Virus record (IMG/VR): IMGVR_UViG_3300042891_001786
Location: 1-22,109 of that record
Reading direction: 5' to 3' (one strand)
Origin: a virus
Length of the DNA stretch: 22,109 nt
Of the stretch, positions 81-20,000 are shown in pieces (positions within the stretch are counted from its first letter, which is position 1; every line of letters starts with the position of its first letter). A program made the position numbers and the translations under genes. The notes under the pieces were generated by a model. That model was not told where the DNA came from, searched no databases, and saw only the letters and a list, made by a program, of their open reading frames with translations.

Positions 81-3000
81 ATGGCAACAGCACAAGCAAA
101 TCAAAAAGTATACGTTTCTCCCGGTGTCTATACCTCAGAAACAGACTTATCTTTCGTGGCTCAAAGTGTCGGTGTAACGACATTAGGTCTTGTTGGAGAA
201 TCCATCAAGGGCCCTGCATTTGAACCTATCTTTATCACGAACTATGATGAATTCCAAGCTTACTTCGGTGGAACAATTCCCGAAAAGTTTGTGAATACAC
301 AAATCCCTAAATATGAAGCGGCGTATATTGCCAAATCTTATCTTCAACAGTCGAACCAAATGTTCTTCACAAGAATTCTTGGTTTATCTGGATATGATGC
401 AGGTCCATCATGGAGTATAAGAGTAACTGCAAACCCAGACCCAACAACAATAGGTCTTAGTTCAGCGGTTGCAACATCGACTTGGACAGCAGGTTTTACG
501 GGTTCGTCATCTGCAAATACAATAACATTCGTTAGTGGAGCATTACCAACACCCGTTTTACAAAACTTAAATGTTCAATTTAGGTTATCAAACGGTTCAA
601 CTTCAACATATGCTGAAGGTTTTAATACATACGTTGGTAATATAATAGATACTCCTTCTTTGTCTGCAACAACAGCAGTTGTTTACGGGTCAATTCCTGA
701 TACTGATTATTCGAATTTATCAGGTTATACAACAATTGTTAATGCGTTTGGAAGTGATTCAACTAATTTATTATTCAATGATTTATCTGCAGCAGATAAC
801 GACCCATGGTTTTATGCAACTTTCGATATTCCAAGTGGTAACAACTATTCAGGATATTCATTTGATTATGTGGTAAATAATTTAGTTTCATTAGGTGGAA
901 CCGTTTATAGTGGAACAGTATCAGGTAACTCTTATACGTTCTCAGGAACTGCATTTGAAGAATATAATAATATGGTTGTTGCAACTTTACGTTCAAGAGG
1001 TATTTCTCTTTACACTAATAGTTCTGCAAGTCTTAATCACGGACCAGTCTATGAAGTTACTGGATTAACTGACGTTCAGTTAGTTTGTAACGACCAATAT
1101 TCAGGTGTTACTAAAAATCCTTTTGGAACTTTCTTACTTTCAGGGGTGACTAAAGATAATGACATTTTCTCTTTCGAGACTTCTTTATTAGCTTCATCTT
1201 CTAAGTATCTTACTAAGGTATTAGGTGTTGATAACTTTGGAAAATCAAGAAATGAAGTTCCTTTGTTTGTTGAAGAAATTTATCCTGGTTCTTTAAATTA
1301 TGCATTTAACCAAAGTTACATCAGAGGTTTAAACTGTGACTTGGTTGCATTACCTGAAGCTAGAGATACGACATCAACTACAACTATTGCTTGGAAATTA
1401 CAACAATATCAATCACCACAAACACCTTTTTTTGTATCTGAGTTAAGAGGTAATAGAGTTTACAACTTATTTAGATTCATTTCAATCTCAGACGGAGATG
1501 CTGCTAATACTGAGGTAAAAGTTTCAATTGCAAACATTTCTTTTAACAATATGACATTTGATGTTTTAGTTAGAGATTTCTTTGATACAGACCAAAATCC
1601 TGTGGTAATTGAAAAATACACAAATTGCACATTGGACCCAGCAACTAACAACTTTATTGGTGTTAGAATCGGGACTTCAAATGGCGAGTATGCTTTAGTA
1701 TCAAAATACATCATGGTTGAAATGGCTGACGGAGCTCCTATAGATGCTTTACCTTGTGGTTTCAATGGATATACACAGAGAGAATATGATTCAATGTCGA
1801 ATCCTTCTCCTATGATTGTATACAAAACAAAATACTACTTCCCAGGTGAAGTTATTTATAACCCTCCATTCGGAACTAACTCTGGTGGTTCAAACACAGT
1901 AGAGTCTCCTGGTGATGTGGTTAGAAGAACATATTTAGGTTTCTCAACTCAGTTTGGTGTTGATGATTCTTTCTTACAATATAAAGGTCAACAAAATCCA
2001 ATAGCTGATTGGGCTCAAGCAACTGATTCTATTCCTTGGAACTACCTTTCGAAAGGTTTCCACATGGACTCAGGTGCAACTGTTGTGACTATCGGAAACG
2101 TTTATGATACAAGTGGTCAAACGGCTTATGAATGTGGAGTTGCTGAATTTAGAAATGACCCTGAATCTCAAGAGAACCCTTACTATTTCATCTACGCTAG
2201 AAAATACACTTGTTGTTTTGCTGGTGGATTTGACGGATGGGATATCTATAGAGAATTCAGAACTAATGAAGATAGATTCCAATTAGGTGCTACAGGTTTC
2301 TTAGCAGGTTTCGCACCTGACCAAAGATACCCAACAGCAACAGGTGATGGTTTATTCAAGAGAATTGTTGTTCAGAATAACAGAAGTGATTTTGCTAACA
2401 CTGACTACTACGCTTACTTACTTGGTATCTTAACATACGCTAACCCTGAATCTACAAACATTAACGTGTTTGCAACTGCATCAATTAACTATGTAGATAA
2501 CTCAAACTTAGTTGAGGCGGCTATCGATATGATTCAATTCCAAAGAGCGGATTCTGTGTATATCACAACGACTCCTGACTACGATATGTTCTCACCAGAT
2601 GCTACAGACCCTCAATTGATTGTTTACCCACAAGAAGCTGTAGACTCTCTTGATAACACAGGAATTGATTCGAACTACACAGCTACTTACTATCCTTGGA
2701 TATTAACAAGAGATACAGTTAACAATACTCAAATCTACTTACCAGCTACTGGTGAAGTTTGTAGAAACTTAGCATTGACTGATAACATCGCATTCCCTTG
2801 GTTCGCATCAGCGGGTTACACAAGAGGTCTTGTTAATTCAGTTAAAGCGAGAGTTAAACTAACTCAAGAAGATAGAGATACTTTATATCAAGGTAGAATC
2901 AACCCAATCGCAACTTTCTCTGATGTGGGAACTGTAATTTGGGGTAACAAAACTTTACAAGTTGCTGATACCGCTCTTAACAGATTAAACGTTAGAAGAT

Positions 3001-3290
3001 TGTTGTTACAAGCTCGTAAGTTGATTTCAGCGGTGGCTGTAAGATTATTGTTCGAACAAAATGACCAAATCGTTAGACAACAATTCTTAGACAGTGTTAA
3101 CCCAATCTTAGATTCAATCAGAAGAGACAGAGGTTTATACGATTTCCGTGTAACAGTTTCTTCTTCACCTGAAGACTTAGATAGAAATACACTAACAGGT
3201 AAGATTTACTTAAAACCTACGAAGGCATTAGAATTCATCGACATCGAATTCTTCATTACTCCAACAGGAGCTTCGTTTGAGAATATTTAA
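81..3290 (+). CDS. 18: Tail sheath protein (gp18-like), 1069 aa
   Basis: This is the contractile sheath subunit that surrounds the tail tube and drives tube penetration when it contracts. The N-terminus (YVSPGVYTSETD, then LGLVGESIKGPAFEP and a YFGG turn, residues about 10-65) is the typical gp18 opening. The last 115 residues (NVRRLLLQARKLISA through GKIYLKPTKALEFIDIEFF) are the typical C-terminal sheath domain that packs on the tube. The protein is much longer than T4 gp18 (about 660 aa). A Ser/Thr/Gly/Asn-rich stretch at about residues 115-355 looks like an added, surface-exposed beta domain. Its codons look more AT-ended than those of the C-terminal third, where AAC, TTC, TAC and ATC are frequent, as expected for a highly expressed gene. 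The start at 81 is supported by the conserved N-terminus, although no Shine-Dalgarno sequence is visible. The gene ends 20 nt before a strong terminator. Confidence 0.95.
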   Translation: MATAQANQKVYVSPGVYTSETDLSFVAQSVGVTTLGLVGESIKGPAFEPIFITNYDEFQAYFGGTIPEKFVNTQIPKYEAAYIAKSYLQQSNQMFFTRILGLSGYDAGPSWSIRVTANPDPTTIGLSSAVATSTWTAGFTGSSSANTITFVSGALPTPVLQNLNVQFRLSNGSTSTYAEGFNTYVGNIIDTPSLSATTAVVYGSIPDTDYSNLSGYTTIVNAFGSDSTNLLFNDLSAADNDPWFYATFDIPSGNNYSGYSFDYVVNNLVSLGGTVYSGTVSGNSYTFSGTAFEEYNNMVVATLRSRGISLYTNSSASLNHGPVYEVTGLTDVQLVCNDQYSGVTKNPFGTFLLSGVTKDNDIFSFETSLLASSSKYLTKVLGVDNFGKSRNEVPLFVEEIYPGSLNYAFNQSYIRGLNCDLVALPEARDTTSTTTIAWKLQQYQSPQTPFFVSELRGNRVYNLFRFISISDGDAANTEVKVSIANISFNNMTFDVLVRDFFDTDQNPVVIEKYTNCTLDPATNNFIGVRIGTSNGEYALVSKYIMVEMADGAPIDALPCGFNGYTQREYDSMSNPSPMIVYKTKYYFPGEVIYNPPFGTNSGGSNTVESPGDVVRRTYLGFSTQFGVDDSFLQYKGQQNPIADWAQATDSIPWNYLSKGFHMDSGATVVTIGNVYDTSGQTAYECGVAEFRNDPESQENPYYFIYARKYTCCFAGGFDGWDIYREFRTNEDRFQLGATGFLAGFAPDQRYPTATGDGLFKRIVVQNNRSDFANTDYYAYLLGILTYANPESTNINVFATASINYVDNSNLVEAAIDMIQFQRADSVYITTTPDYDMFSPDATDPQLIVYPQEAVDSLDNTGIDSNYTATYYPWILTRDTVNNTQIYLPATGEVCRNLALTDNIAFPWFASAGYTRGLVNSVKARVKLTQEDRDTLYQGRINPIATFSDVGTVIWGNKTLQVADTALNRLNVRRLLLQARKLISAVAVRLLFEQNDQIVRQQFLDSVNPILDSIRRDRGLYDFRVTVSSSPEDLDRNTLTGKIYLKPTKALEFIDIEFFITPTGASFENI

Positions 3291-3362: not shown

Positions 3363-4451
3363 ATGGGAAAAAAATTGATTATCAGTGAATCAGAAGTTGA
3401 TGAAATCCGTAGAATGTATGGGTTGTTAGTTGAACAACAATATAGTGACGGTATGATTCCTTCAAAGGGTTACGAAATTATTGAAGATATTGAAGGTAAC
3501 ATGGGAAAAGCCCGTAAAGTTAATGGAGTTTGGAAACCAACTCCAACTCCTTATAAAGGGGATGTGCTTGAAACTCAAATAAAAAATTATATTACTAAGT
3601 ATTTGCCCGAAAAACAATGGTTTAAGATAGACCCTTTATTCAGAACTCAAATATATTCTTTTATGTTCCAAGCGGGTTCAAGTTCAGGAAGAGAATTTAG
3701 ATGGATTGCAGGTTTAGCAAATGCAATCGACCCTTCTCTTGACAGGTCGGAGATAATCAATGATGAAAATAAAAGAGACTTCGCAGCCAAAATTATCAAA
3801 CAAGCAATTAACAGTGGAAAGATTAATAATTTCTATAATAATTACCTCTCGGTCGTTGACACCCAGTATAAGGGGTTGAAAAAAACCGAAGGTAAAAAAG
3901 AAGACATCGAGGAATTCGGTAAACAATACGAAATTGTTTGGAAAAACAGACCAACGATTATCGAAGAGATGTGGAATGGTGCAACAATTAAGGATATCAT
4001 GAATAAATACTACCCTGACCCTAACGTAACCAAATCCTCGAAAATAAACCCGACAGGACAGAAAGATAAAGTTGTCACTATTCCTACTAAGTCTGGTGTT
4101 AAACCTGTTTCGGAACCAACTTCAAACGTCCCGATTAAGACTAAAGAAAAAATTAAAGTAACTGGTAGAGATTTACAAGAATTTTTAGATAACATAAGAA
4201 GTAAAACAGTCGGTCTTAAGGTTGATTTTGATTCTGTGAATATTGACATGGATAAACGAGAATTAACTTTTAGTTTAGATGAAACCAAAGAACCTGTCAA
4301 AAGGTTGGTATTTGCAGTTAACCTGCGTGATGAGAAAACTTGTGAATCTTGTGTTAACATTGGGAAAAAAAACAATGTTCCTAATGACAAGAGAATTAAA
4401 GGAAAGTTTGAAAACGGAACAAGAATGTTTGAGTTATTCGCCCTTTATTAA
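3363..4451 (+). CDS. Leader-bearing protein with possible lysozyme-like region, 362 aa
   Basis: I do not recognise the full-length protein. Residues 1-24 form a charged, probably helical leader (GKKLIISESEVDEIRRMYG, then LLVE) ending in Leu-Val-Glu before Gln-Gln. Similar endings occur in other proteins here and resemble T4 capsid-targeting sequences. Residues 38-62 (EIIEDIEGNMGKARKVNGVW, then KPT) can be laid on the catalytic N-terminus of T4-type lysozymes (IxxxEG...GxWT), with Glu44 at the catalytic position. The usual Asp is not in register (Val53/Asn54). Residues 92-105 (LFRTQIYSFMFQAG) resemble the lysozyme INMVFQMG helix. Residues about 220-260 are a Lys/Thr/Pro-rich linker. The C-terminal 100 residues (from TGRDLQEFL) form a second domain containing CESC. 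The gene sits between sheath and tube, unlike T4, with its own promoter element and an upstream terminator. The lysozyme relation is an inference, and the enzyme may be inactive. Confidence 0.7.
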   Translation: MGKKLIISESEVDEIRRMYGLLVEQQYSDGMIPSKGYEIIEDIEGNMGKARKVNGVWKPTPTPYKGDVLETQIKNYITKYLPEKQWFKIDPLFRTQIYSFMFQAGSSSGREFRWIAGLANAIDPSLDRSEIINDENKRDFAAKIIKQAINSGKINNFYNNYLSVVDTQYKGLKKTEGKKEDIEEFGKQYEIVWKNRPTIIEEMWNGATIKDIMNKYYPDPNVTKSSKINPTGQKDKVVTIPTKSGVKPVSEPTSNVPIKTKEKIKVTGRDLQEFLDNIRSKTVGLKVDFDSVNIDMDKRELTFSLDETKEPVKRLVFAVNLRDEKTCESCVNIGKKNNVPNDKRIKGKFENGTRMFELFALY

Positions 4452-4458
4452 AAAAGGA

Positions 4459-4466
4459 TATTTATA
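4459..4466 (+). promoter_or_regulatory. TATTTATA element 4 nt before the HAD gene start
   Basis: This exact octamer follows AAAAAGGA and lies 4 nt before ATG 4471. The geometry matches the element at 3351 (AAGG, octamer, 4 nt, ATG). It falls in the 19-nt gap after the stop codon of the preceding gene. Confidence 0.5.
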
Positions 4467-4470
4467 TAAT

Positions 4471-5301
4471 ATGTTAAGAGTTATTAAAGAAGGTTTTAAA
4501 GAACCTAATAGTCCAGATATGAAATATTATGCGTTCGATTGGGACGATAATATTGTTCATATGCCAACAAAAATCGTTCTTAAGACGGATGATGGTGAAG
4601 AGTTTGGAATGAGCACAGAAGACTTTGCGGAATATAGAAGTGAAATTGGTAAGGGGCCTGTAGAATATAAAGGTAAAACTATTGTAGGGTTTGCTAACAA
4701 TCCATTCAGAAACTTTAGAACTGAAGGAGACAAACAATTTTTGGTTGACTCCATGAAAGCTAAACTTGGACCTGCGTTCGATGATTTCAGAGAAGCAATC
4801 AATAATGGTTCAATATTTGCCATCATCACAGCAAGAGGTCACAATCCCAACACACTGAAAGAAGCTGTCTACAATTACATTATAAATGATTTCAATGGTA
4901 TAAGTAAGGAGAGTCTTCTGAAGAACCTTAGAAAATATAGGTCGTTCGTCGATGAGGGAGAAATGAGTGATGATGATTTAATAAAATCTTATTTAGAACT
5001 CAACAAATTCCACCCCGTTTCTTTTGGAGACGACAAGGGTGCGGCAAGTCCTGAAGAGTTAAAGGTTATTGCGATGGATGATTTTGTGAGTTATATTAAA
5101 GGAATGGCTGCAGTATTAAATAAGAAAGCATTTCTTAAAAAAGATATAGGTAATAAATTCGTTCCATCTAAACCAGTTATAGGATTTTCAGACGATGACC
5201 CTAAAAACGTAGAAGTAATGAGTAAACACTTTAAAGATAAACCAGATAATCTAGTTAAGACTTATTCTACAGCTGGAGGAATTAAAAAGGAAGTTAAATA
5301 A
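4471..5301 (+). CDS. HAD-superfamily phosphatase-like protein, 276 aa
   Basis: Haloacid-dehalogenase-type motifs are readable. Motif I is YYAFDWDDNIV with Asp23 (nucleophile) and Asp25. Motif II is FAIITARGH with Thr120. Motifs III/IV are K234 followed by VIGFSDDDPKNVE with Asp241-243. A Mg-dependent phosphatase or nucleotidase acting in the cytoplasm is likely, but the substrate cannot be read from the sequence. The reading frame is open back to 4279, but that stretch overlaps the previous gene. ATG 4471 directly follows that gene's stop and the TATTTATA element, so I chose it. Met17 (4519), just before motif I, is an alternative. The first 11 residues (MLRVIKEGFKE) resemble, in shorter form, the hydrophobic-x-Glu leaders of neighbouring proteins. 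With the preceding gene it forms an insert between sheath and tube. Confidence 0.8.
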   Translation: MLRVIKEGFKEPNSPDMKYYAFDWDDNIVHMPTKIVLKTDDGEEFGMSTEDFAEYRSEIGKGPVEYKGKTIVGFANNPFRNFRTEGDKQFLVDSMKAKLGPAFDDFREAINNGSIFAIITARGHNPNTLKEAVYNYIINDFNGISKESLLKNLRKYRSFVDEGEMSDDDLIKSYLELNKFHPVSFGDDKGAASPEELKVIAMDDFVSYIKGMAAVLNKKAFLKKDIGNKFVPSKPVIGFSDDDPKNVEVMSKHFKDKPDNLVKTYSTAGGIKKEVK

Positions 5302-5956: not shown

Positions 5957-6700
5957 ATGGAAAATCAAGCAAGAGACTACGGTCAAGAAAATTTCACATT
6001 ACCACACGACATGGTGCCCCTACCATCACAGGGAGTATTTTATAAAAATAAAAAGAAATCACTCAAAGTTGGTTATCTAACTGCGTCCGATGAGAACATT
6101 CTCATGGGTGGTGCGGATGACATTACCGCAACTTTATTGAGGTCTAAAATATATGAACCAGACGTTAGAGTTGACGATTTGTTAGAAGGGGACATCGAAG
6201 CAATTTTGGTCTTCTTAAGAAACACTTCTTTCGGTCCAGAAATAGACATGTCTTTGACTGACCCGAATACAAAAAAACAATTCACAGCTAAAATTGTTCT
6301 TGATTCACTTCCAATTATCAAGGGACAAGAACCTTCCGAGGATGGAACCTTTACGACAAAGTTACCAAAGTCAGGAGCTACAGTTAAATTAAAACCAATG
6401 ACTTATGGTGAAATTAACGAAATTTCAAAAATGGCTGACAGTTATCCTCTTGGAAGAATTGCTCCAAGAATCACATGGAGGTTACAAAGACAGATTGTTG
6501 AGATTGATGGGGTGACAGATAAAGTAGAGATTATTAAGTTCATCGAAAACATGCCCATTGCTGACTCAAAATATGTGAGGACATTCATGAACGAAAACGA
6601 ACCAAGACTTAATATGTTCAAAGAAGTAACAGCCCCATCAGGAGAAAGACTAGCAGTTAATGTTGGTTTTGGGGTTGAATTTTTTCGCCCTTTCTTCTGA
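5957..6700 (+). CDS. 26: gp26-like baseplate/tail assembly protein, 247 aa
   Basis: It resembles the T4 gp26-type 'base plate protein' family by the opening VPLPSQGVFY followed by a basic stretch, the LTASDENIL motif, the VDDLLEGDIEAILVFLRNTSFGP segment (about residues 74-96) and the later LKPMTYGEINE. The family has an assembly role near the hub and tape measure. The position between tube and tape measure is where tail assembly chaperones are encoded in most tailed phages. The frame ends ...VEFFRPFF-stop, and a +1 frame continues for 50 residues. A ribosomal shift at TTT TTT CGC would give a 293-residue fusion. The ATG at 5957 precedes the conserved motif by about 20 residues and is only 2 nt from a terminator T-run, with no Shine-Dalgarno sequence. 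Low translation is therefore expected, as suits a catalytic assembly factor. Confidence 0.8.
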   Translation: MENQARDYGQENFTLPHDMVPLPSQGVFYKNKKKSLKVGYLTASDENILMGGADDITATLLRSKIYEPDVRVDDLLEGDIEAILVFLRNTSFGPEIDMSLTDPNTKKQFTAKIVLDSLPIIKGQEPSEDGTFTTKLPKSGATVKLKPMTYGEINEISKMADSYPLGRIAPRITWRLQRQIVEIDGVTDKVEIIKFIENMPIADSKYVRTFMNENEPRLNMFKEVTAPSGERLAVNVGFGVEFFRPFF

Positions 6701-6879: not shown

Positions 6880-8751
6880 ATGTTTGAAACCAAACCAGAC
6901 ACAAACGAAGCGGAATTAAATAGTGTAACTAATTTACAATCCGCTGTGGACAAACTCAAGGCGGAATTTACTAGACTTGGAGACCCCCTTAAGGAGATTC
7001 CTCAAAAGATATTTGAAATTACAATGGCTGCCGATGGATTGAACAAATCATTCATAGGTAACAGGGGGAGAATCCAAGAAATGATGAAGGCGGTCACCGA
7101 AGTAGGTCCTGAGATTGTGGGACTCGGTGGTAAATTTGAGGATGCGGGAAAAACTATTGCAGAAGTAGCTGCTGGTTCAAGAAGAAATGTTTTAGCGTCG
7201 AAAGAAGACATTCGAGAATTGTTTGCCACAGGTAAAGTTATAGGACAAGATGTCAGTAAACTTGTGGATGGGTTTGCTAAAGTCGGTATAATGTTTTCAG
7301 ACGTGTCTGAAAACGTAGTAAATTCGATAAGTTATGTTAACAGTATCGGTGTCAATGCTAAAGCAGTTATGGGAGATGTTTTGGCAAACACAGACCAATT
7401 ATCACGTTTCAATTTTGAAGGTGGAGTCAGAGGGTTGACAAAGATGGCAGCACAGGCGTCTATGTTAAGGTTTGATATGAAAGAAACATTCGAATTAGCT
7501 GATAAAGTTTTAGACCCCGATAAGGCGATTGAGGTGGCTTCAGCATTCCAAAGACTTGGTGTATCCGCAGGGAATCTTACTGACCCGTTCATGTTAATGA
7601 ATCAATCAATTAACGACCCATCAGGTCTTCAAGATTCTTTAATCAATGTTGCAAAACAATTTACATATTTTGATGAGGAGGCTAAACAATTCAAAATTAA
7701 CCCTCAAGGCATTTTGACCCTAAGAGAAATGGAAGCACAAACAGGTGTAAGTGCCAAGGCAATGAGAGAAGCGGCACTTTCTGCTGCAGATTTTGATAAA
7801 AGATTGGGTGATATTAAAAAAACGGGAAAGATTGGAGGGTTTAGTGAAGACGACCAAAAATTAATTACAAATTTATCCAGAATGGGTAAAGGCGGATATG
7901 AGATAAAAGTGAAGGAAGACGGTAAAGACGTGTATAAAAAGTTAGCCGACGTTAATGAACAACAACTTAAAGCGACATTAGACGCTGAAAAAACAAAACA
8001 GGACACTACCATAGAAGATGTGCAAAGGAATCAATTAAACATACAAGAAGGTATGTTGGCCAACTTAAAGGAGATAAATGAGAAAATTCTTAGGGGTATA
8101 ACAGGTAATAACACAGCTCTTGCTAATATTTCGAAATTATCAGCGGGCACAAGAAAAACAGGAACAAAAGTTGCGGGAGAATTTTTCAACGACGAATATG
8201 TAGAAAAGGTTGAAAAATTCTCAAAAGAATTAGCAGAAGCAGGAAAAGATGAGACAAAACGAAAAGAAGCACTCGATAAGATAGAGAAAGAAATCACTAA
8301 CACAGGAGGAAGTCTTTTAGCGGAATTCAAAAACGCAGCCAAGAGTGTTGCGGGAGGTAGTTTACCTTTCGCAAAACAAATTGATTCTCTTTTCAAATTT
8401 TTAGATTCGGATAAAATTCCTACCAAAAAAACATCACCAGAACGTGCAAAGACAGGAGTTGTTGCAACTAAGGAGCCAACAATCGATAATGATTTTATAT
8501 TTGGTAGAAATAAAACTGCTGAAAGTGTCTCTACAGGAAAAGGTGGTGTAGTAGGTGGTGGAGGTGTTAGTGTAAACGAAACTGTTGAGGTCAAACCAAT
8601 AAGTGGAAAAATTGATATAAACGTGACGGCAACAGGTGCTAGTCCTAAAATTATCGAAGATATGTTGAGTAAAGCTTCAGTAACATTAAAGGAAAGAATC
8701 TTTGAAATTGTTGCGGAACAATCTAAGATTACACCTGACAGAATCAAATAA
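6880..8751 (+). CDS. 29: Tail tape measure protein (gp29-like), 623 aa
   Basis: I call this the tape measure protein, which spans the tail lumen and sets tail length. The evidence is its position directly after the gp26/gp51-like assembly pair, its length (close to T4 gp29, 590 aa) and its largely helical, Lys/Glu/Ala-rich sequence with heptad-like stretches. Examples are SAVDKLKAEFTRLGDPLKEI near residue 30 and EKVEKFSKELAEAGKDETKR near 450. Residues about 60-260 (from FIGNRGRIQEMM to SAFQRLGVSAGNLTD) resemble the body of phage tape measure proteins. A Gly-rich hinge at about 552-562 (TGKGGVVGGGG) separates a C-terminal segment that probably binds the hub. At about 0.15 nm per residue the protein would fit a tail of roughly 90 nm. 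I see no clear transmembrane helix. A long antisense reading frame beneath it is only a composition effect. Confidence 0.8.
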   Translation: MFETKPDTNEAELNSVTNLQSAVDKLKAEFTRLGDPLKEIPQKIFEITMAADGLNKSFIGNRGRIQEMMKAVTEVGPEIVGLGGKFEDAGKTIAEVAAGSRRNVLASKEDIRELFATGKVIGQDVSKLVDGFAKVGIMFSDVSENVVNSISYVNSIGVNAKAVMGDVLANTDQLSRFNFEGGVRGLTKMAAQASMLRFDMKETFELADKVLDPDKAIEVASAFQRLGVSAGNLTDPFMLMNQSINDPSGLQDSLINVAKQFTYFDEEAKQFKINPQGILTLREMEAQTGVSAKAMREAALSAADFDKRLGDIKKTGKIGGFSEDDQKLITNLSRMGKGGYEIKVKEDGKDVYKKLADVNEQQLKATLDAEKTKQDTTIEDVQRNQLNIQEGMLANLKEINEKILRGITGNNTALANISKLSAGTRKTGTKVAGEFFNDEYVEKVEKFSKELAEAGKDETKRKEALDKIEKEITNTGGSLLAEFKNAAKSVAGGSLPFAKQIDSLFKFLDSDKIPTKKTSPERAKTGVVATKEPTIDNDFIFGRNKTAESVSTGKGGVVGGGGVSVNETVEVKPISGKIDINVTATGASPKIIEDMLSKASVTLKERIFEIVAEQSKITPDRIK

Positions 8752-8787: not shown

Positions 8788-11700
8788 ATGGGTAGTCCGT
8801 TAGATTTAGTCAGCTCAGAAGGGTTCAGAAAAAAACTTATAACGAAGAACTTAGCACCATATGCTAAGTCTCCAAGTAGAACTACGCCACCAACAAACTA
8901 CGAATATATTCAATCTGACACATCCGTAGTTGATAGTCCTGATAATTTAATCGATGAACCAAGTTATGCCAATAAATTATATCCCCTCAATCAATATGGT
9001 AACGAGGGTGGGTATGAACAAGTTCCTGACCCAGGAGGATTATTAAATACCAAATCAAACGAAGGTGAATATGGGTATCAAGATGCTAATATCTTAGGAC
9101 AATCTTTACCAGAGTCACAAAAATGGAAACCACTCAATGTTTTCTCTAATGGTGGTGAATTACCTTTGGATAGTGCGGAATTCTTCGATTCAATGAATAG
9201 ACCACAAGCAACCGCTCTATACAATAACCAACCGTATCCAACAACCTTTGTTCCTTCAACATACAGTCCTGTATCAATTTTATTATCACCTGACCCACAA
9301 GGAACGAACGGTCTTTTATCACAAGATTCATTTATAGCTAAATTAGGTGCTGAAACCCTGAGAGCAGAATTTCAAAGAAGAATTGCTACAGGTATCAGAC
9401 AAAATACTATAGGTAGAATCAATGCATTTAATGTAAGAGGTGGAACAGATATTCTCAACTTAATTACAGGAAGAGTTCCTTTACTCGAGCCAAACTATCA
9501 AATCACAGTTCCGGCTAATCCTATCTTAGCTGCAACGGACTTTGCATTAAGATTAGCAGGAACTATAATACCAACATCAACAATTCCTGGTTCATATTTT
9601 GACCCTCTAATTAATCAAAGACAACCAACCACAATACAACAATTAACAAATGCATTCAGAAGGTCTGCTGTTGGTAAGTTTTTTAATAGACTTGTAGGTG
9701 CTGATAAGTCGGGTTCACAATTGTTTTTGAATAATACAGGTGGAGGTCAAAAATCTAGGTTATTTGATAATATTGATTATAACAAATACAAGCCGAATTA
9801 TCAAAGAACTATTTTTGATAGATTGGCGGGAGCATTAGTTGGAACCGTAGAATCGAACAGTAATTTTTATGTTGGTTCAACAACATCTGACCCATCAAGA
9901 GTGTTTTCACCTGGTGGAGACATACCAACAAATGCTTATGGACAAGAGCAAGAAACTCCCGTTTATGGACCATCTGAGTTGGCTCAACTTTATGAAGGTG
10001 TTAGCAGAGAAATAAAGCTTGCTGCTAATGGACCAACATATAGTAATGGTGGTGGTATTGAAGGAGGATTCACATGGGTCTCTCCAAAATACAAAGATAA
10101 TGCTGGTAAGAAGGTTGGTATAGGTGGTGAAATACTTGACCAAGACCAAGACTTTAAACCATCGTCATACAACAGCACTGAATCTACCAATATTGAATTC
10201 AAACAAGGGTCAATTCTTGACGATACTCAAAGAATTATTGATAGCCAACCACAGGGTGGTAGGAGATTACAACACGTTGGTAATGCAATTGACCAAGTAA
10301 GTAAAATATTCCATGACGGATATAATGAAATGACTAAGGGTTCAAGAGTATTAACTTATACAGGTTCAATCGGACAAGAAGTCGGAACAGAATACTGCAG
10401 AGTCTTTGCAAAAGATATTCCATACCTTCAATACAACGATTTACAGAAGACGGATGGCATGACTACACAAGGTAGGAAATTTGCATACTCCGTAATGGAT
10501 TCGACATACAATTTGAACATTGCTCCAAATAAAAGAGAAGGAGGACAAGATTCTACAAACTTAGTTTTAGACACCGCTGCTGGTGTGTCCTATGCCAAAA
10601 AATATATGTTCTCAATAGAAAATTTAGCGTGGAGAACATCAGCAACACCAGGTTTCAGTGTAACTGAATTACCTATATGTGAGAGAGGACCTAATAGTGG
10701 TAGGGTTATGTGGTTTCCACCATATGGGTTAACATTCAATGAGTCTGTGAGTGCAAACTGGAAATCAACGGACTTTTTAGGAAGACCTGAACCTGTATAT
10801 ACCTATACTAATACACAAAGAACAGGTTCTTTGACATGGAAGATAGTTGTTGACCATCCGTCTGTTTTAAACATCATAGTTAATAAAGTTTTAAGTAATG
10901 AAACGAATAAAAACAGAGTCAACAGTATTCTCGAATCTTTCTTTGCTGGTTGTAGAAAATATGATTTATATGAATTAGCAAAAAAATATTATACAGTTTC
11001 ACCAGGAGAATTGAATGAATTACAACAAATTATTAATTCAGGAGATTTAAGTAAAGAACAGTTAGGGTTCGTTAGAGACAGTGTAGCCACAGGTAAGGAC
11101 AATTCAGGTAATCAAGCAACATTAGTTGCCGAACCAAGTCAAAATACACCAAGTGACGATTTAAAACAGTTCCAAAACTTTTCGTTATATTTTCCGAACA
11201 ACGACCCTGTTAGTCAGGGCACGGTGTCTAGTTATCCTGAATACTATAATATTTATGAGGGGCAGAAAAAAAGTGCTCAATATAGTCAAGATAATTTACA
11301 AAATTTCTTCACTGACGTAATTGAAACAAACTATAAGGAAGTTAAAGATAACTTCTTTGTTCAGTTAGCTAGCACGTTGGAGAATAATCCCAATAGAGTT
11401 GTTACAATTACTCTTGAAGGTAGTGCGTCTAGTGCTGGTAAAGAAACATATAATTTGACGTTATCAGAAAGAAGAATAGATTCTGTTATAAAATACTTTC
11501 AGTCAGAACCATCTTTGAGCAAATTTATCAACACCGGAAGAATAAAATTCAAACAAGTGCCTTTGGGAGAAAATGCCAACGGAAAAAGATGGTTACCAAA
11601 AGAAAAAAGATTTGACGACAGACAATATACTTGTAGTGGAAATACGGACAGTAAAAGTGCAAATAATAATTCACAGATATATTCAGTGGATGCAATGGGA

Positions 11701-13773
11701 TGTAGAAGAGTCAGTATTTCATCAATCGTTGCGACAACAGGTGTTCCAAATCAACAACCTGCACAACCATCACAACCAGCTGGTGGACCTGGAAATGAAC
11801 CTCTGAGACCAATAGCTGGCCAGAATATTGAGACTAAAATTAGAAAACCTGATAATATTACTAAAAGGGTGCTCAGAACATTATTATCTGAGTGTGATTA
11901 TTTTGAAACTATTAAAGAAGAAACGCCTATGGTTTTCGACTCCCTTAAAGAAAAACTTAAATTTTTCCAACCTGCATTTCACTCCACAACACCGGAAGGT
12001 TTAAATTCGAGGCTTACATTCTTACAACAATGTATGAGACCTGGTGATACAATCCCAACAGTAAAAGAAGTTGGAGGAAAACAAGAATTACAATTCAATG
12101 ATGCCGTAAATACAGCCTTTGGTGCACCACCTGTTTTAGTTTTAAGAATCGGAGATTTTTACAATACCAAAATAATTCCTGATGGACTTCAGATTTCATA
12201 TGAAAGTTTGGATATTAACCCGGAGGGAATCGGGGTTCAACCGATGATTGCAAACATTACAATGTCCTTCAAGTTTGTTGGAGGTAGTGGATTGAAAGAG
12301 TCAATTGATAAATTACAGAACGCATTAACATTCAACTATTATGCTAATACTGAAATGTGGGACGATAGAGCAGATGTGACTGATGATAGTCTCAAGGTTT
12401 TAGATAAAGAGTTCCTACAATTGGTTAACCAAGCTGCGGCACCAACGGTTAATCAGGTTCCAAATCTTAATGGTCAATCAAACGAAAATACGATTGGTGA
12501 TAGAATAACTACCGTTATAACTGCTAGCGGAGAGACTGGAACAATATCGTATCAACAATTTATGGATAATTTTGTTTCAACAACACAAACATATTTCCAA
12601 ACGGTTGTTAATAAGAGTAGAGATGCTCTGAATCAATATAATAATGCTATATTACAGAATTGGAGCACATCAAGAATTTATACCAAAGGTAATTTCTTGG
12701 TTACAACAAGTGACGATGTCTATCTATTTGGTAAACCCGATTCAATTCAACAAATAATTGATAAAGTTACCAACGATTTCATTGGAAATATTGAATCAAC
12801 GACTGAAGCTACTCAAGACCCATTTATGTTCTTCATTACAAGACCACAAAAACAATTCAATGAAAAGGCAATCAGAGAACTGAGAAAGAATTTTGTTAAC
12901 TATGTCAAAAATAAAAAAGGAACATTCCAAAATGCCTTAACTAAAATAAATCAAGACATGGTGAATGCTCAACAAACTTATTTACAATTCGTAAGTCGAG
13001 CAAATACTGCACCATATAATACTGGACCGGGAACTCAACTTGATGGACTACAACAAAAAAATGGATTTTTAAAATTATATAAAGTAAGTGGAACAACTCA
13101 AGTAAGCGCCGGTAGCACCGCGGCTGATACTCAAATAGAAATGACTGAAGACATTATTAAAATAAAAAGAAATCTGAACGAATTCTATTCCGCGTCAACA
13201 TCGTTGTCAGAATTTAATTATCAGGGGAATTTATATAAGGGACATCTTGTTTATGGTGAAACAAAAGAAAATACTACTGCCAAATCTTTAGAAAGTGTTG
13301 TTTTCAATCAATACTCTAAAGATAATCAATTCATATCATTACCCTTCAAAAGAGAATATATGTTGTTGTCAAATGATTTAAAAAGTGAAAATTATCAAAC
13401 ATTTAAAAACGCTCTGATTGGTAATATAATTAATAACAATAAATTACTTGGGACTGCGGGTAGTAACACAAACATATCACAAGAATTTGATGCATATTGG
13501 TTGGCTCAAGCAAAACCTTTGTTCGACCAAGAAAATGCATTGGCTCAAACTTTCGTGAATGAAATGGAAACAAATAAACTTAAAAACTTTATAAAGTATA
13601 CACCATTCCCAAGTAAGACTAGATTGTTCAATTATGAATTGAACACTAATCCAAGTGATAATGAAAAGAAATTAATCAAAGCTCTAGGAGCATCAACAAA
13701 CCAATCAACGAATAAAGATACTTGGAATGACCCCCAAGGAATGATATTTATTTCGAAAGTAAAACTTAACTAA
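8788..13773 (+). CDS. Giant baseplate tube-initiator-like protein with OmpA-like domain, 1661 aa
   Basis: This is probably a baseplate protein at the tail-tube/hub junction, comparable in role to T4 gp48/gp54. Residues about 640-692 (VMWFPPYGLTFNESVSANW, then FLGRPEPVYTYTNTQRTGSL and TWKIVVDHPS) and 1116-1165 (VLVLRIGDFYNTKIIPDGLQ, then ISYESLDINPEGIGVQPMIA and NITMSFKF) look like the two halves of a tube-like domain. Between them, at about 830-985, sits an OmpA-C-like domain. VTITLEGSASSAGKETYN and LTLSERRIDSVIKYF (872-906) align closely with E. coli OmpA, except that the Asp of the TD motif is replaced (Ser881). Arg896 and Asn889 are kept. A Pro/Gln/Gly linker (about 986-1011) follows. The first 600 residues and the last 450 are unassigned; the latter are Asn/Gln/Thr-rich. 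The stop overlaps the next start by 1 base (TAATG), which suggests coupled translation. The OmpA-like part could touch host peptidoglycan. Confidence 0.8.
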   Translation: MGSPLDLVSSEGFRKKLITKNLAPYAKSPSRTTPPTNYEYIQSDTSVVDSPDNLIDEPSYANKLYPLNQYGNEGGYEQVPDPGGLLNTKSNEGEYGYQDANILGQSLPESQKWKPLNVFSNGGELPLDSAEFFDSMNRPQATALYNNQPYPTTFVPSTYSPVSILLSPDPQGTNGLLSQDSFIAKLGAETLRAEFQRRIATGIRQNTIGRINAFNVRGGTDILNLITGRVPLLEPNYQITVPANPILAATDFALRLAGTIIPTSTIPGSYFDPLINQRQPTTIQQLTNAFRRSAVGKFFNRLVGADKSGSQLFLNNTGGGQKSRLFDNIDYNKYKPNYQRTIFDRLAGALVGTVESNSNFYVGSTTSDPSRVFSPGGDIPTNAYGQEQETPVYGPSELAQLYEGVSREIKLAANGPTYSNGGGIEGGFTWVSPKYKDNAGKKVGIGGEILDQDQDFKPSSYNSTESTNIEFKQGSILDDTQRIIDSQPQGGRRLQHVGNAIDQVSKIFHDGYNEMTKGSRVLTYTGSIGQEVGTEYCRVFAKDIPYLQYNDLQKTDGMTTQGRKFAYSVMDSTYNLNIAPNKREGGQDSTNLVLDTAAGVSYAKKYMFSIENLAWRTSATPGFSVTELPICERGPNSGRVMWFPPYGLTFNESVSANWKSTDFLGRPEPVYTYTNTQRTGSLTWKIVVDHPSVLNIIVNKVLSNETNKNRVNSILESFFAGCRKYDLYELAKKYYTVSPGELNELQQIINSGDLSKEQLGFVRDSVATGKDNSGNQATLVAEPSQNTPSDDLKQFQNFSLYFPNNDPVSQGTVSSYPEYYNIYEGQKKSAQYSQDNLQNFFTDVIETNYKEVKDNFFVQLASTLENNPNRVVTITLEGSASSAGKETYNLTLSERRIDSVIKYFQSEPSLSKFINTGRIKFKQVPLGENANGKRWLPKEKRFDDRQYTCSGNTDSKSANNNSQIYSVDAMGCRRVSISSIVATTGVPNQQPAQPSQPAGGPGNEPLRPIAGQNIETKIRKPDNITKRVLRTLLSECDYFETIKEETPMVFDSLKEKLKFFQPAFHSTTPEGLNSRLTFLQQCMRPGDTIPTVKEVGGKQELQFNDAVNTAFGAPPVLVLRIGDFYNTKIIPDGLQISYESLDINPEGIGVQPMIANITMSFKFVGGSGLKESIDKLQNALTFNYYANTEMWDDRADVTDDSLKVLDKEFLQLVNQAAAPTVNQVPNLNGQSNENTIGDRITTVITASGETGTISYQQFMDNFVSTTQTYFQTVVNKSRDALNQYNNAILQNWSTSRIYTKGNFLVTTSDDVYLFGKPDSIQQIIDKVTNDFIGNIESTTEATQDPFMFFITRPQKQFNEKAIRELRKNFVNYVKNKKGTFQNALTKINQDMVNAQQTYLQFVSRANTAPYNTGPGTQLDGLQQKNGFLKLYKVSGTTQVSAGSTAADTQIEMTEDIIKIKRNLNEFYSASTSLSEFNYQGNLYKGHLVYGETKENTTAKSLESVVFNQYSKDNQFISLPFKREYMLLSNDLKSENYQTFKNALIGNIINNNKLLGTAGSNTNISQEFDAYWLAQAKPLFDQENALAQTFVNEMETNKLKNFIKYTPFPSKTRLFNYELNTNPSDNEKKLIKALGASTNQSTNKDTWNDPQGMIFISKVKLN

Positions 13774-14096
13774 TGGGATTTCCTTATTATAATAGATATA
13801 GTGAGTTTCTTCTAAATGGTGAACAGACTGTAGTGCCTTATGTGAATATTCCACAGAAGACTACCGACAAGACATACATTTATAAGGTAGCACAAAGTAG
13901 ATTGGATAAGGTATCACAACAATTCTACAACTCACCTTATTTCGGTTGGCTAATTTTACAAGCCAATCCACAATTTGGCGGTTTAGAAAATAATATCTAC
14001 GATGGTGCTATACTCGTAATTCCATTTCCGTTAATTCCGTCATTACAGGATTATAAAGGAGCCTTGGAAAATTATTTTTATTATTATGGCAGGTAA
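13773..14096 (+). CDS. 53: LysM-type baseplate wedge protein (gp53-like), 107 aa
   Basis: The sequence has a LysM-like core, YKVAQSRLDKVSQQFYNSPY then FGWLILQANP and IYDGAILVIPFPL (about residues 37-90). This matches the pattern of T4 gp53 and related small tail LysM proteins that join wedge to hub. It is shorter than T4 gp53 (196 aa) and keeps little beyond the LysM part plus a C-terminal aromatic tail (ENYFYYYGR). It overlaps the stop of the preceding gene by 1 base and the start of the hub gene by 11 bases, so translation is probably coupled. In T4, gene 53 is also immediately upstream of gene 5, the hub lysozyme, which supports both calls. There is no separate promoter apart from a weak TATTTATT at 13743. 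Confidence 0.8.
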   Translation: MGFPYYNRYSEFLLNGEQTVVPYVNIPQKTTDKTYIYKVAQSRLDKVSQQFYNSPYFGWLILQANPQFGGLENNIYDGAILVIPFPLIPSLQDYKGALENYFYYYGR

Positions 14097-17000
14097 CATT
14101 CAAGCGGATAACAACGGTAACATTTATGTTGAATTTGATTACAACAACATCATACTTGTTGACCCGAACCGAACAATAAATAATGACGGTAAAGTTTATG
14201 AAAGATTGGTTGACCATGAGAATCTTATCATGTATGCGAATCTCGAGGCTGATGTTCTGCCAAGAACAAAGCTACTTGTTGGTGCCATACCAGGAACAAA
14301 CGTGAGACAAACCGTTTCTATTGCTAAAATCAATTTTTTAAGACCAGGTGAAAACAATTATTTTGGAACAGGTTATTATGATGAGTTAACAGGTAAAAAC
14401 TCATTACAATCTCAAGCAACTAACCAACCATTAAACAAAGTTAATTTAGGACAATCAGGTTCTAAAGGATATACAAGTGCCACTGTCGTAGACCAAGAAA
14501 ATGTTGTAGATAATGGACTATTAGGTATCACAAGTATTAGTGTAAAAGTTTCATCATCGTTTATTCCAACAGTATCGGTAGAACTTGAGGATGTTCAAGG
14601 AAAGGCTCTATTTCAGTTGGGGAACAACTCACCATATGCGGCGTTTTTTAACTTACCTTATCCTCAATTTTATTTGACGTTGAAAGGTTATTATGGGCAG
14701 GCTATCAGATATCAACTCAATTTGGAAAAGTTCAATGCGAGATTCAACAGTGCCAGCGGAAATTATACAGTTAGTTTGGAATTCAAGGGATTCAAGTTCA
14801 ATGTTTTGAATGAGATATCTATCTCGCATTTGATTGCTACACCACACATGTATAGTAGAAGGTTTAATATTAATACTAGTAATGTTAGTTCAAACACATC
14901 GACAACTAACCAAAATTTACAACAACAGTCAAGTAATGTTCAAGCAAACAACTCAAACACAGATGCATCAAGAGCGTCAACCTCAACATCTGCTAGTTAC
15001 GTAAGTGAAAAAGGTTATCAAAAGATAGTTGAAGTTTATAGTGAATATAAGTCAAAAGGGTTAATACCACCAGACTTTCCTGAATTAACAATGATGCAAT
15101 TGATTAATAAGTTCGATACATTCCAACAGGAAATTGTTAATTCATATCCTAAGGTAAATGTTGAACCTTTGACAAACGTTAGAAATTATTTGAAGACAGT
15201 AACAGAACTTCAGAGTGTAGTTTTTGGAACCAACAACAGTTGGTCCTACAAATATTTGGACCCAAAACCAATTGTGTTAGATGACAACACAAGAGTTTAT
15301 TTTTTCAAATCAAATTTATTTAATAACCTTACACAAGAAGAGGTTGCGAAAACTGAACTTCAAGGAATTTTCACAAAATATCTTTCAGTATTAACTGAAA
15401 ATCCCACATTAGGTGTTGGTAAACCATCCGAAATCAAATTGAATAATTTGGGTTACGATATGCTTTTGGCTTCTTTCAATATTGATAATGTTAATTTGAT
15501 AAAGACTGCTCAACAATTTTTGGGTGTGGTTGCACCAACTAGCGTTCAAACACAACAAGTTAAACAACAGATTGAACTAAAGTTAATTCAAAGAGATGAA
15601 AAGGTTAATGGGGTTCCAAAGAAAACCAGTCCACCGTTGTTCATATTTGAAGGAAAGAATAGATTCATTCAAACAATCAACCAAATAACAACTGAAGCAA
15701 ATAAAAAACTACAAGAGTTTGAAGCGGCGATAACGCAAGATTTGAAAAACCGCATTCAAAGTCAGTCTTTAGGAATTGGATTCAATCCAACAGCAAGAAA
15801 CATCATAGCTGTTATTATGGCAAACGCCGAGGGTTTTTTAAGACTTTTGGATGAGGTTCACACAAATGCATGGAATGTTAAAAATGACCCCGTTAGAAAA
15901 CAAGTGATACAAAATAATGTATCCTCAGCCCCAAATATTGAAGTAAGAAAAAATGCAAAAATTGCTGGTAATGCTGCGACTCTAAATCAAGGTTTAGTAA
16001 CCGCCGAGGAACCAGTCTATCCTTGGCCATCATTTTTCATTGAATCTCCCGATGATAAAAAGGGTAGATTTCAATTAACTTATATTGGTGACCCATCCGT
16101 TGTAGATTTAACTCAAGGTTATTTAGCCGAAAGTTGGCCGGAAGTAGAGTTTGTTGAGGAATACATGAAAGGGTTGAACCAAAAGTTTTCTGTTCCTACA
16201 TCTCAATCACCAATAGAAAGTCAAAAAACAACTCCTTTGGTTAGTATAAATGCGATTGAGTTTCCACAAACAAATGTTCCATTTGCAAATAAAGAAATTC
16301 TTAAATTCTTATATGAAATTTGGGAAAGACAATTTGTTACATCACATTATTCAAACTTTATCAGGGGGACAGCGAATCAACAAAACCAAATCGTTAATTT
16401 AAATAAAGCTGCGGACACAAATAACATTGTTGTGTCTGTAGGAACAAATGCACCATTTTTGGCGTTTGACCTAAAAAATACAGATTACACATCAACTAAT
16501 TTTACAACCTTCCTTAGACAATATTCAAATGAAGGGACAGGAAAATCTTGGCAAGATTTCATTAGAGACTTTTTTGTAACACCGTATATTAAGGCTGAAA
16601 TAGAAACTCCTCTCAGTATTTTAGGAACTGATGAATTAGGGTTAGAGCCACAGGTTAATGTGAACAAAGGTGAATTATTACAATTAGCTAAGGAAGCTCC
16701 AAACGACCCACTTATTATCGATACGTATCCTTTCAGGGACTATACGTGGAATGCTGTAAATTTAGCCAACAGTGATGTAAGTCAATCACAACAAGTTTAT
16801 AATACTAAAAGAAGTCTGAAAGTTTTTACTGACAGAAATCAACTTTCGAACTTCGAAAACATTTATGATTATACTACTAACAGACCTGTTACAAATTTTT
16901 CTTATTTGAATGTTACCCAACCAAATTTTTTGGTCCAACCATTAGAGACTACACAAGTAACATTGAACGATTTTTATGCAAAAAGAACTCCGAATGAATT

Positions 17001-20000
17001 TATCCCAACTGAGGGATTTAGTTTATATAGTTCTCCATCAGGAGCGATGCCGGCAAAAAAGTCAACTTCTATTTTGAACACACCATATTTTGTAAATGCA
17101 ATTCAACAAGGTGTTGAAAGTGATAGAACCGGTAATACGTATCCTTATGTGACGGCTGCTTATTTATTTTTGAATTCTCTTCCGTTAGGGACTTTAAGAG
17201 AAAAATATAAGACAAATGGTCAAGCAACTGAATTGGACTATATTGCATCAGTATTCAATAAGTTTGGTGCAATACACAAAATGCCTTATGCTTGGGTTTT
17301 GAAATTAGGGTCGGTTTGGTATAGATACAAAAAATATGTTGATGATAATGTTGATATCTTAGATAGTGTTTGGAAAAATTTCGACTACATAAACAACTAT
17401 GACCCTGTAACAAACAACGTTTCAAAACAATACGATGTGCAACTAAAGGATACATCGAACACAATTACAATACAACTACAAGCACAAAACACACAACAAA
17501 TTAGAATCCAACCAGGGTTTTATCCTAAGTTGGTAAACGATTTCAATTATTTTTATAATGGGTCAAACCTTTATAAAAACTATACATCATCTGAAATACA
17601 ATCATCTATTAACGATGGTATGTTGTTATATCAATTTCCAAATTCTAATTTTAATACTAGCCAAAATAACGTTAGTTTAGCTTTAGCGACATGGTCTGTT
17701 TTGATACCAAAAAATATTAATGACTCATTCACCTCTCCCAATGTTTGTGTGCCATCAGCAAAGGCAAAGTTGGATGACGATTACTACGTTATTCCATCTT
17801 TCGGTGTAAATTTGAACCAAACAAAATTCGAATGTTTGAATAAAGATACTCAGGCAAACACCGTGGTTAATTTAACGTTTAACCCATCAATGTATAATGG
17901 TTCTGTTAGAACTTTATGGTCTGCTCCAAACTATGGATATTTCAACTCAGATGAAATAAAAAAACCGCTTTACAACGAGTATATGACTCATATTCCTCCA
18001 AATTTGTCGGTATCACCCTTGTTCTTGAATTCAATTTCAGGGTATAGTAAAATTGAGGAGATATTTGCGGTTTTTGATACAAAGACACTTAACCTGATGG
18101 AACAGGAATTCTTAAACTATTGTAAGCCAATTACAAATGTATCTTATAGAATAAATCAATCCACAATAGATTCAACCCTTATTCAAATGGACTCCAACTT
18201 CAGAAACTTCCAAAGTTTTATGAGGAGCACCATGACAGTATTTCCTACCGTGGTGAGTGGCAATACTGAAAATAAAGTAAAAGTGCTTTTTCAAGATACA
18301 ATTACCAAACAATTTGGTAACTTTAATTCACAGATAAAAGGCTTCATGCAGTATGATGTGGTTTTAAGAAATGGTAATCCATCAAACTACAGTAGAAGAA
18401 TATTTGATTCTTATGTGAGTTATCAAAATACCGTTCAAAGAGTTGTTAGTCCGATTGCCTTCACACCATATGTTATAAATAGTGTGCCTACAATAGGTGG
18501 AAATGTTACCTTGGCTCAATCAAGACAAAGATATCCTAACGAGTGGAGAGCTTTGGAAAAAGAAGTTGGATTCTCAACAATACAACAATTAATATATAAA
18601 GATAGTGGTTCATATATTACAGACTTTTTTCCTGACAACAACTTAGGATTTACAGTTGAAAACATTGTTTTGTGTTCGAAATTAATAAAGATGTATGCGA
18701 CACAGAAACTACTCAATCCTGGTTTGAATGCCTCAACCTTTAAAAGTCAGTTAAATACCTATTTGAATGGTCTTAACACATATCAAGATTTATTATTAAA
18801 TCAAGTGATAGCCGGATTTAAAGCGGGTTTACCAAATGTATCTCAACCGACTGAGGCAACTATCAACTCTCAGATTCAAAGTATGCAAGGTAAAGTTGAG
18901 ACTTATGAAGTTTTCAAAACACTGAATGACAAATGGGTTGCGGGTTCTGACTTCAAAACAAAAACACTTTTCGAAGACATATTGTTTTTAGATAGAGCGT
19001 CAAGAAACATAGGGGATACAATTATATTAGACATATTTGATATAAAAAATATGTTGAACAAGAATTACCTTAACGAAGGGATGTCTGTTTATACTTTGAT
19101 TAGTGGTATTTTAATGAAAAATAACTTTACTGTTATGCCATTACCAGCCTATGTCAATTTCTACAATGCTCAAGATGTTGATGGATTAACGGTGGCAAAT
19201 CCCGAAGGTTCATTAGAGTTTGCGGATAATTTGTGGGGAACTTTTAGAACTGTTGATTATAGAAAGTCTGGACCGAAGATGGTTTGTTTCTATGTTGGTA
19301 AACCTTCAGGTCACCTAAACTTACCAAATATTGTTTCAGGATATGGAGATGATTCTTTTGAGTTTAGAAGAAGTAGTGAGGTTCCTCTATTGGAGGACCA
19401 ATTGGGAAAAACCGATTATGCAATTTCAAATAAATGTGTGGGATTCAACGTTGATATTGGTATAAGAAACCAAAACATATTCTCATCGTTTAGTGTTGGT
19501 CAAGATAATGGAAAAGCGACTTCTGAGTCAATTCAGGCTGTTCTCGAAATGGCAAACCAAACAAATACAAGAACAGTTGGAAACCAAAACGCCAGTTTAT
19601 ACAACTACTATAAAGGTAGAAGTTATACCTGTTCTGTTACTGCATTAGGAAATGCTTTAATTCAACCAACAATGTATTTCAATTTGAGACACGTTCCAAT
19701 GTTCAACGGTCCATATATGATTACAAGTGTATCTCACACAATAAGTGCGGGAAACTTTATAACTGAATTTGAAGGTGTAAGACAGGGGGTATATGATTTA
19801 CCACCAATAGATAACTTCATTCAGTCAATCAACCAAAACCTCCTTACTCAAATTGAGGCATTGGTTGTTAATAAGACAGACCGACCAACAACACAAGGAA
19901 CAACGACTCAATCAATTGCGGATAATGTTGTTCAAGATGCTGATGAAAATACTTTAGCGGAACCAAACACATGTAGTAATAATTTGGATTCGTCATATAT

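Follow-up and report, generated by a model that had tools for sequence, protein, structure and literature searches.

Why does a protein from the baseplate region of a phage carry a domain of the kind that cellular proteins use to anchor themselves to peptidoglycan? The question is raised by the window, a virus record of 22,109 bases whose tail genes all lie on one strand. One of these genes encodes a 1661-aa protein in which a stretch resembling the C-terminal domain of OmpA stands between two conserved segments. We ask here what this stretch is, how it has evolved and what it might do.

The carrier protein and its nested domain

The carrier gene follows a coiled-coil, tape-measure-like gene and precedes gp53-like and gp6-like genes. 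For comparison, 80 loci homologous to the 1661-aa protein were fetched. The features of the region are as follows.

81-3290, same strand: sheath protein, 1069 aa
5397-5885, same strand: tube protein
5957-6700, same strand: T4_baseplate/hub-like protein
6880-8751, same strand: coiled-coil protein in the tape-measure place
8788-13773, + strand: 1661-aa baseplate-region protein, carrier of the OmpA-like domain (open reading frame, 80 homologous loci, gene position)
10615-10860, + strand: conserved segment before the insert, about residues 610-691 (conservation; partial homology to the C-terminal module of immuto gp35)
11140-11733, + strand: OmpA-C-like domain, residues ~785-982 (PF00691, AlphaFold models, structure matches)
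11848-12390, + strand: conserved segment after the insert, about residues 1021-1201 (TPEGLN.RLTFLQQC ... NPEGIGVQPM ... LQNAL; conservation)
13773-14096, + strand: gp53-like baseplate wedge protein, 107 aa, a separate gene (PHROG 7145 match)
14086-20877, + strand: 2263-aa protein in the gp6-like wedge place (phrog_52 tail protein, E 1.9e-4)

The product of 13773-14096 matches phrog_7145, a baseplate wedge family (E 6.9e-5), and its agreement with the T4 gp53 profile is modest (probability 54, E 1.3e-4), so that on profile comparison it looks, modestly, like a member of the gp53 family. The 2263-aa neighbour has no named relative in the collection of phage records; near its end lies an IPT/TIG domain, for which the TIG match (E 4.7e-4) is slightly below cut-off. 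Elsewhere in the window, sheath families match only the C-terminal ~220 residues of the sheath protein, and its long N-terminal part is unmatched. Two open reading frames on the same strand, 3363-4451 and 4279-5301, share 173 bases, read in different frames; the true start of the latter is probably at a later codon. RNA families and tRNAs were sought in the 22,109 bases and none was found.

PF00691 (OmpA) is the sole recognisable domain of the 1661-aa protein. It matches residues 855-908 with 27.6 bits (E 3.8e-6) in a search with the whole protein, against a gathering score of 27.2 bits, and reaches 32.3 bits with the domain excerpt alone. At E <= 0.01, 25 of 46 homologous domains match it individually. 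Among solved structures E. coli Pal comes closest in sequence (1oap, E 7e-4), the E. coli OmpA entry 3nb3 being a weaker match (E 0.32), and the family profile retrieves the same set of OmpA-like structures. The preliminary description had spoken of an alignment almost position by position with OmpA; the motif is real, but the wording was a little strong and Pal is nearer than OmpA.

An AlphaFold model of the domain, built from the 46 aligned domains, has a mean pLDDT of 86.6 and a pTM of 0.82. In the PDB, Foldseek ranks PorE, Pal, OprF and OmpA highest, with a moderate best E value of 1.6e-3. By VIA, the domain excerpt alone gives Z 8.0 (rmsd 3.8, 114 aligned). Fragment 520-1215, which includes the first strand, gives Z 11.0 to PorE (rmsd 3.3, 130 aligned, the match covering residues 266-463 of the fragment), and its table contains OmpA/Pal/MotB/TagL/Dot-Icm-type rows throughout. 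Compared with OmpA-C, the predicted fold is OmpA-like, as had been supposed. With a PF00691 score above cut-off and a structure model in agreement, residues ~785-982 are confirmed as a predicted OmpA-C-like domain nested within a baseplate-region protein. Chance similarity to OmpA is ruled out by the PF00691 score, the homologue matches, the AlphaFold model and the structure matches. The domain was indeed present at 11278-11742 (residues 831-985), where it had been placed initially, but that start is too narrow; the limits are widened to ~785-982 because the first strand (FSLYFPNNDP) precedes it.

The segments on either side had been called tube-initiator-like, and this fares less well. For the first flank hhalign established homology with Flavobacterium phage immuto gp35, in its C-terminal module (probability 92, E 6.3e-7). 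However, hhalign comparison of the flanks with T4 gp48, T4 gp54 and the window's tube protein family gave no match, and the flank profile found no credible match among solved structures (PDB). The model of fragment 520-1215 (mean pLDDT 55.8) is poor outside the OmpA part. What does fit the T4 tube initiators gp48/gp54 is the place of the gene, directly after the tape-measure-like gene and before the wedge genes (compare the T4 order 29-48-54 and the immuto order). Since gp48, gp54 and tube protein gave no sequence match, the label "tube initiator" comes from gene order.

Two relatives show what the carrier looks like when the insert is missing. Immuto gp35 and WWT39329 of Microcystis phage Mel-JY01 share the place in the tail operon and a C-terminal module homologous to the first flank, but they have no OmpA domain and a short stretch replaces the insert. 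Mel-JY01 has a protein of 2255 aa (L082, 28592-35359) in which many ~45-aa repeats (SIFDWDGKREQAPSVDFFDI...) precede the module that it has in common with immuto gp35.

The putative ligand pocket

One clue to function is the set of residues that line the pocket. The DAP site of TagL consists of Asp486, Asn494, Leu497 and Arg501 (PMC8253398). The corresponding positions of the phage domain, and a pair of cysteines in it, are these.

11428-11430, + strand: Ser881, where TagL and A. baumannii OmpA have the DAP-binding Asp (Asp486 and Asp271)
11452-11454, + strand: Asn889 (TagL Asn494; pocket alignment)
11461-11463, + strand: Leu892 (TagL Leu497; pocket alignment)
11473-11475, + strand: Arg896 (TagL Arg501, A. 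baumannii OmpA Arg286; pocket alignment)
11632-11634, + strand: Cys949, kept throughout the window's clade (no variation in alignments A1 and A2)
11701-11703, + strand: Cys972, adjoining the last strand's RRV (likewise without variation in A1 and A2)

The spacing of the four pocket residues, 8/3/4, is identical to that in TagL. The preliminary description was exact in calling Ser881, Asn889 and Arg896, and what it had noticed in one protein, replacement of the Asp of the TD motif with Asn and Arg kept, proves near-fixed across the whole family. Among 161 unique phage copies the Asp position holds Ser in 146, Thr in 8, Asn in 4, Asp in 2 and Gly in 1. The Arg896 column is Arg in 161/161 and the Leu892 column Leu in 154/161, while the Asn889 column is Asn in 145 of 148 aligned copies. 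In a MAFFT alignment of 46 domains all four pocket columns are invariant, against a mean column identity of 34%. In the wider iterated-profile set, where mean pairwise identity is 24%, they rank 1-4 among 105 columns, in an alignment built with a profile whose strongest part is the pocket motif itself. As a control, the same profile retrieved 15 cellular OmpA domains from two bacterial genomes, and all 15 have Asp. Within the phage family, L170 and L273 have Asp at the Ser881 position (GSAD and GQTD).

The Asp-to-Ser change is thus old as well as nearly fixed, leaving a pocket that is conserved but altered. Because the change is near-fixed across the family while Asn and Arg remain, an altered ligand specificity can soundly be inferred from the alignments. 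Moreover, with Arg, Leu and Asn kept and Ser nearly fixed, the pattern is not that of decay. Cys972 is present in 66/66 copies that have a letter there, and together with Cys949 it could form a disulfide or a metal pair.

How does the domain compare with its cellular relatives? With the PF00691 anchors PorE, Pal, OprF, OmpA and TagL it shares the fold, Asn-Leu-Arg at identical spacing, Gly-Glu, and the Arg-Arg-Val of the last strand. However, the anchors keep the DAP-binding Asp, whereas nearly all members of the phage family have Ser. The phage domain also differs in being nested in a baseplate protein and in the conserved Cys pair of the window's clade. It belongs to the OmpA-like fold family but not to the DAP-binding peptidoglycan anchors, because their defining Asp is absent at residue 881. 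TagL, of the type VI secretion system, is similar in that an OmpA-like domain is part of a contractile machine. Yet TagL, which keeps the Asp, is a component of the attacking cell's own membrane complex, whereas the phage domain would be part of the particle.

Distribution, exchange and loss

Both flanks were recovered in 195 unique proteins. The profile finds the domain in 161, nine have a degenerate copy or an insert outside the profile's reach, and 25 have a shorter stretch at the insert site, mostly a low-complexity linker. These 25 unique proteins rule out presence in every homologue, the outcome that would have spoken against the preliminary description. The opposite idea, an insert confined to the window's close kin, is ruled out as well, presence being the usual state of the family. 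On the flank tree the OmpA domain has been lost at least twice, in a clade of 24 and in the single protein L279. Relocation of the domain to another gene in OmpA-less phages was considered and rejected: four records lacking the domain (95-156 kb, perhaps fragments) contain no PF00691 match, and five long OmpA-bearing records, which may be incomplete as well, contain one each, in a frame of the length expected for the carrier protein. The OmpA-less relative L150 (6230-10421) has a carrier protein of 1026 aa, and between its gene and the gp53-like gene stands an additional one of 366 aa, as though the carrier's C-terminal part had become a gene of its own.

The carriers are a large uncultured phage group. 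A search of 50,697 phage records found no relative of the 1661-aa protein, of the Prochlorococcus-linked homologue or of the rumen homologue. Collections of bacterial genomes yielded three homologues, in a Prochlorococcus single-cell genome, a Paludibacteraceae rumen MAG and a Holophagaceae MAG (the last a fragment only), and these records hint at hosts.

Where the domain is present it has evolved fast. Mean identity is 25% for the domain vs 65% for the flanks. The distances of the two are correlated (Mantel r 0.85, 0/2000 permutations), and domain and flanks share a common history. In the pairs tested, dN/dS is 0.04-0.35 for the domain vs about 0.006-0.1 for the flanks, about 3-20 times the flank value. 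It is nevertheless well below 1, so the domain is under purifying selection.

In three close pairs the record is of another kind. At unchanged residues, synonymous identity falls from 0.86 in the rest of the gene to 0.56 in the domain for L012/L041, from 0.81 to 0.58 for L027/L054 and from 0.87 to 0.61 for L058/L059 (p = 9e-14, 2e-6 and 1e-12), which puts the domain at 0.56-0.61 in all three. Among further pairs, four have a weaker drop and four have none. For L058/L059, nucleotide identity is 76-80% over residues ~781-960 as against 89-100% before, and it is back up by ~1021. A synonymous drop limited to the domain marks it as a recombining cassette, replaced by recombination in these three pairs of phages while the rest of the gene stayed alike.

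A possible envelope binder or baseplate joint

What might such a cassette do? The preferred reading, to which we give about an even chance of being right, is that of an exposed, exchangeable envelope binder near the tube/baseplate junction, for stem peptide or another carboxylate. The OmpA-C-like module would have been inserted mid-protein into a carrier encoded directly after the tape-measure-like gene, and we infer that it is most likely exposed near that junction. An envelope ligand would be bound by the modified pocket, Ser-Asn-Leu-Arg instead of Asp-Asn-Leu-Arg, in which Arg896 would hold a carboxylate. With the Asp lost, the free amino end of diaminopimelate would no longer be salt-bridged, so the ligand is perhaps a peptidoglycan stem with another modification or cross-link, or some other carboxylate. 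The domain would come into play when the particle reaches the cell and would help to keep the tail end on the wall or seat it there.

A conserved pocket, as read from the alignments, speaks for a ligand, and other envelope machines grip peptidoglycan by OmpA-like domains, for example TagL (PMC8253398). A hint of another sort comes from the insert-less, syntenic immuto, which has a VanY domain in a neighbouring large gene: gp33 (L085, 28290-31106), in the gp6 place, ends in a C-terminal VanY D-Ala-D-Ala carboxypeptidase domain (PF02557, E 6.6e-10). DAP-type peptidoglycan is expected in Prochlorococcus and Bacteroidota hosts. The Asp is missing even in the contigs linked to them, which makes plain DAP binding unlikely. 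Against the preferred reading, the fold alone might require Asn, Leu and Arg, peptidoglycan-binding folds in baseplates such as LysM can be purely structural, and two lineages manage without the domain.

The main rival takes up the second of these points. The OmpA-like fold may have been co-opted as a joint linking tube and wedges, its pocket perhaps clasping a side chain or C-terminus of a neighbour. The precedent is LysM. T4 gp53 has a LysM fold, and baseplate LysM proteins (T4 gp53, Mu gp43, Milano gp25, A-1(L) gp16, Cis7) are alike in placing a fold of peptidoglycan-binding type at or in the tube initiator. The LysM of Mu gp43, Milano gp25, A-1(L) gp16 and Cis7/tCIS joins tube and wedges, built into the baseplate in or beside the initiators (PMC11915804, PMC10966104, PMC8894136). 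The position of the carrier gene between tape-measure-like and wedge genes, the strongly conserved flanks and the absence of the DAP-binding Asp all agree with a joint. LysM is an unrelated fold, structural in those baseplates, and the window has a gp53-like gene besides the OmpA domain. This separate protein in the same operon counts against a joint, and the adjoining gene rules out that the OmpA domain substitutes for a LysM-type gp53. A joint should also evolve with its partners, yet the domain is far more divergent than the flanks, has been swapped between close relatives and was lost twice with a low-complexity linker alone remaining. We therefore consider a joint rather unlikely, though a serious competitor.

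Exchange and fast divergence are also what receptor-binding modules display, and perhaps the domain is a host-range module with an OmpA fold whose ligand lies outside the wall, such as a surface glycan or outer-membrane component. A pocket nearly frozen family-wide is unlike a site that tracks many receptors, and we know of no OmpA-C domain that binds surface glycans or outer-membrane components; we think such a role improbable. Still less credible is a decaying relic of a captured host OmpA domain with no present function. The lost Asp, a degenerate motif in L100, L101 and L107 and the fact that the domain can be lost would suit a relic, but an invariant Arg, the predominant Ser and dN/dS well below 1 would not, and purifying selection on the pocket columns disfavours it.

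A more specific version of the envelope-binding reading can be put forward tentatively, with the chances against it: the contractile-tailed phages of this group would carry a swappable OmpA-derived baseplate cassette whose pocket has been retuned (Asp to Ser, Arg kept), by which the particle would grip the host wall at entry through a feature other than the free DAP end. No description of a baseplate OmpA domain in a phage came out of the literature library searched, the two hits of one such search concerning the T6SS. OmpA-like domains do occur in genes of other phages (Cellulophaga phi17:2 R9ZWT8, phrog_7897, Bacillus phage G gp249/gp250, Prevotella Lak phages), but there they are in separate genes, unlike the nested baseplate copy. 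In Bacillus phage G (L215, 1089-4294) two OmpA/MotB-domain genes adjoin each other despite a Gram-positive host.

The domain of the window is not a one-off but one copy of a swappable cassette that runs through the family and whose pocket has changed in the same way almost everywhere. Next to LysM, it would offer another case of baseplates having recruited a fold that binds peptidoglycan. How a contractile tail handles peptidoglycan once the outer membrane has been breached is a long-standing question, and in this large natural family a cell-wall-anchor fold belongs to the baseplate, with binding residues changed but fixed. The natural swaps and deletions make the question testable with one soluble domain. 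The uniform change of one of four pocket residues hints that these phages may have retuned their grip on the host envelope.
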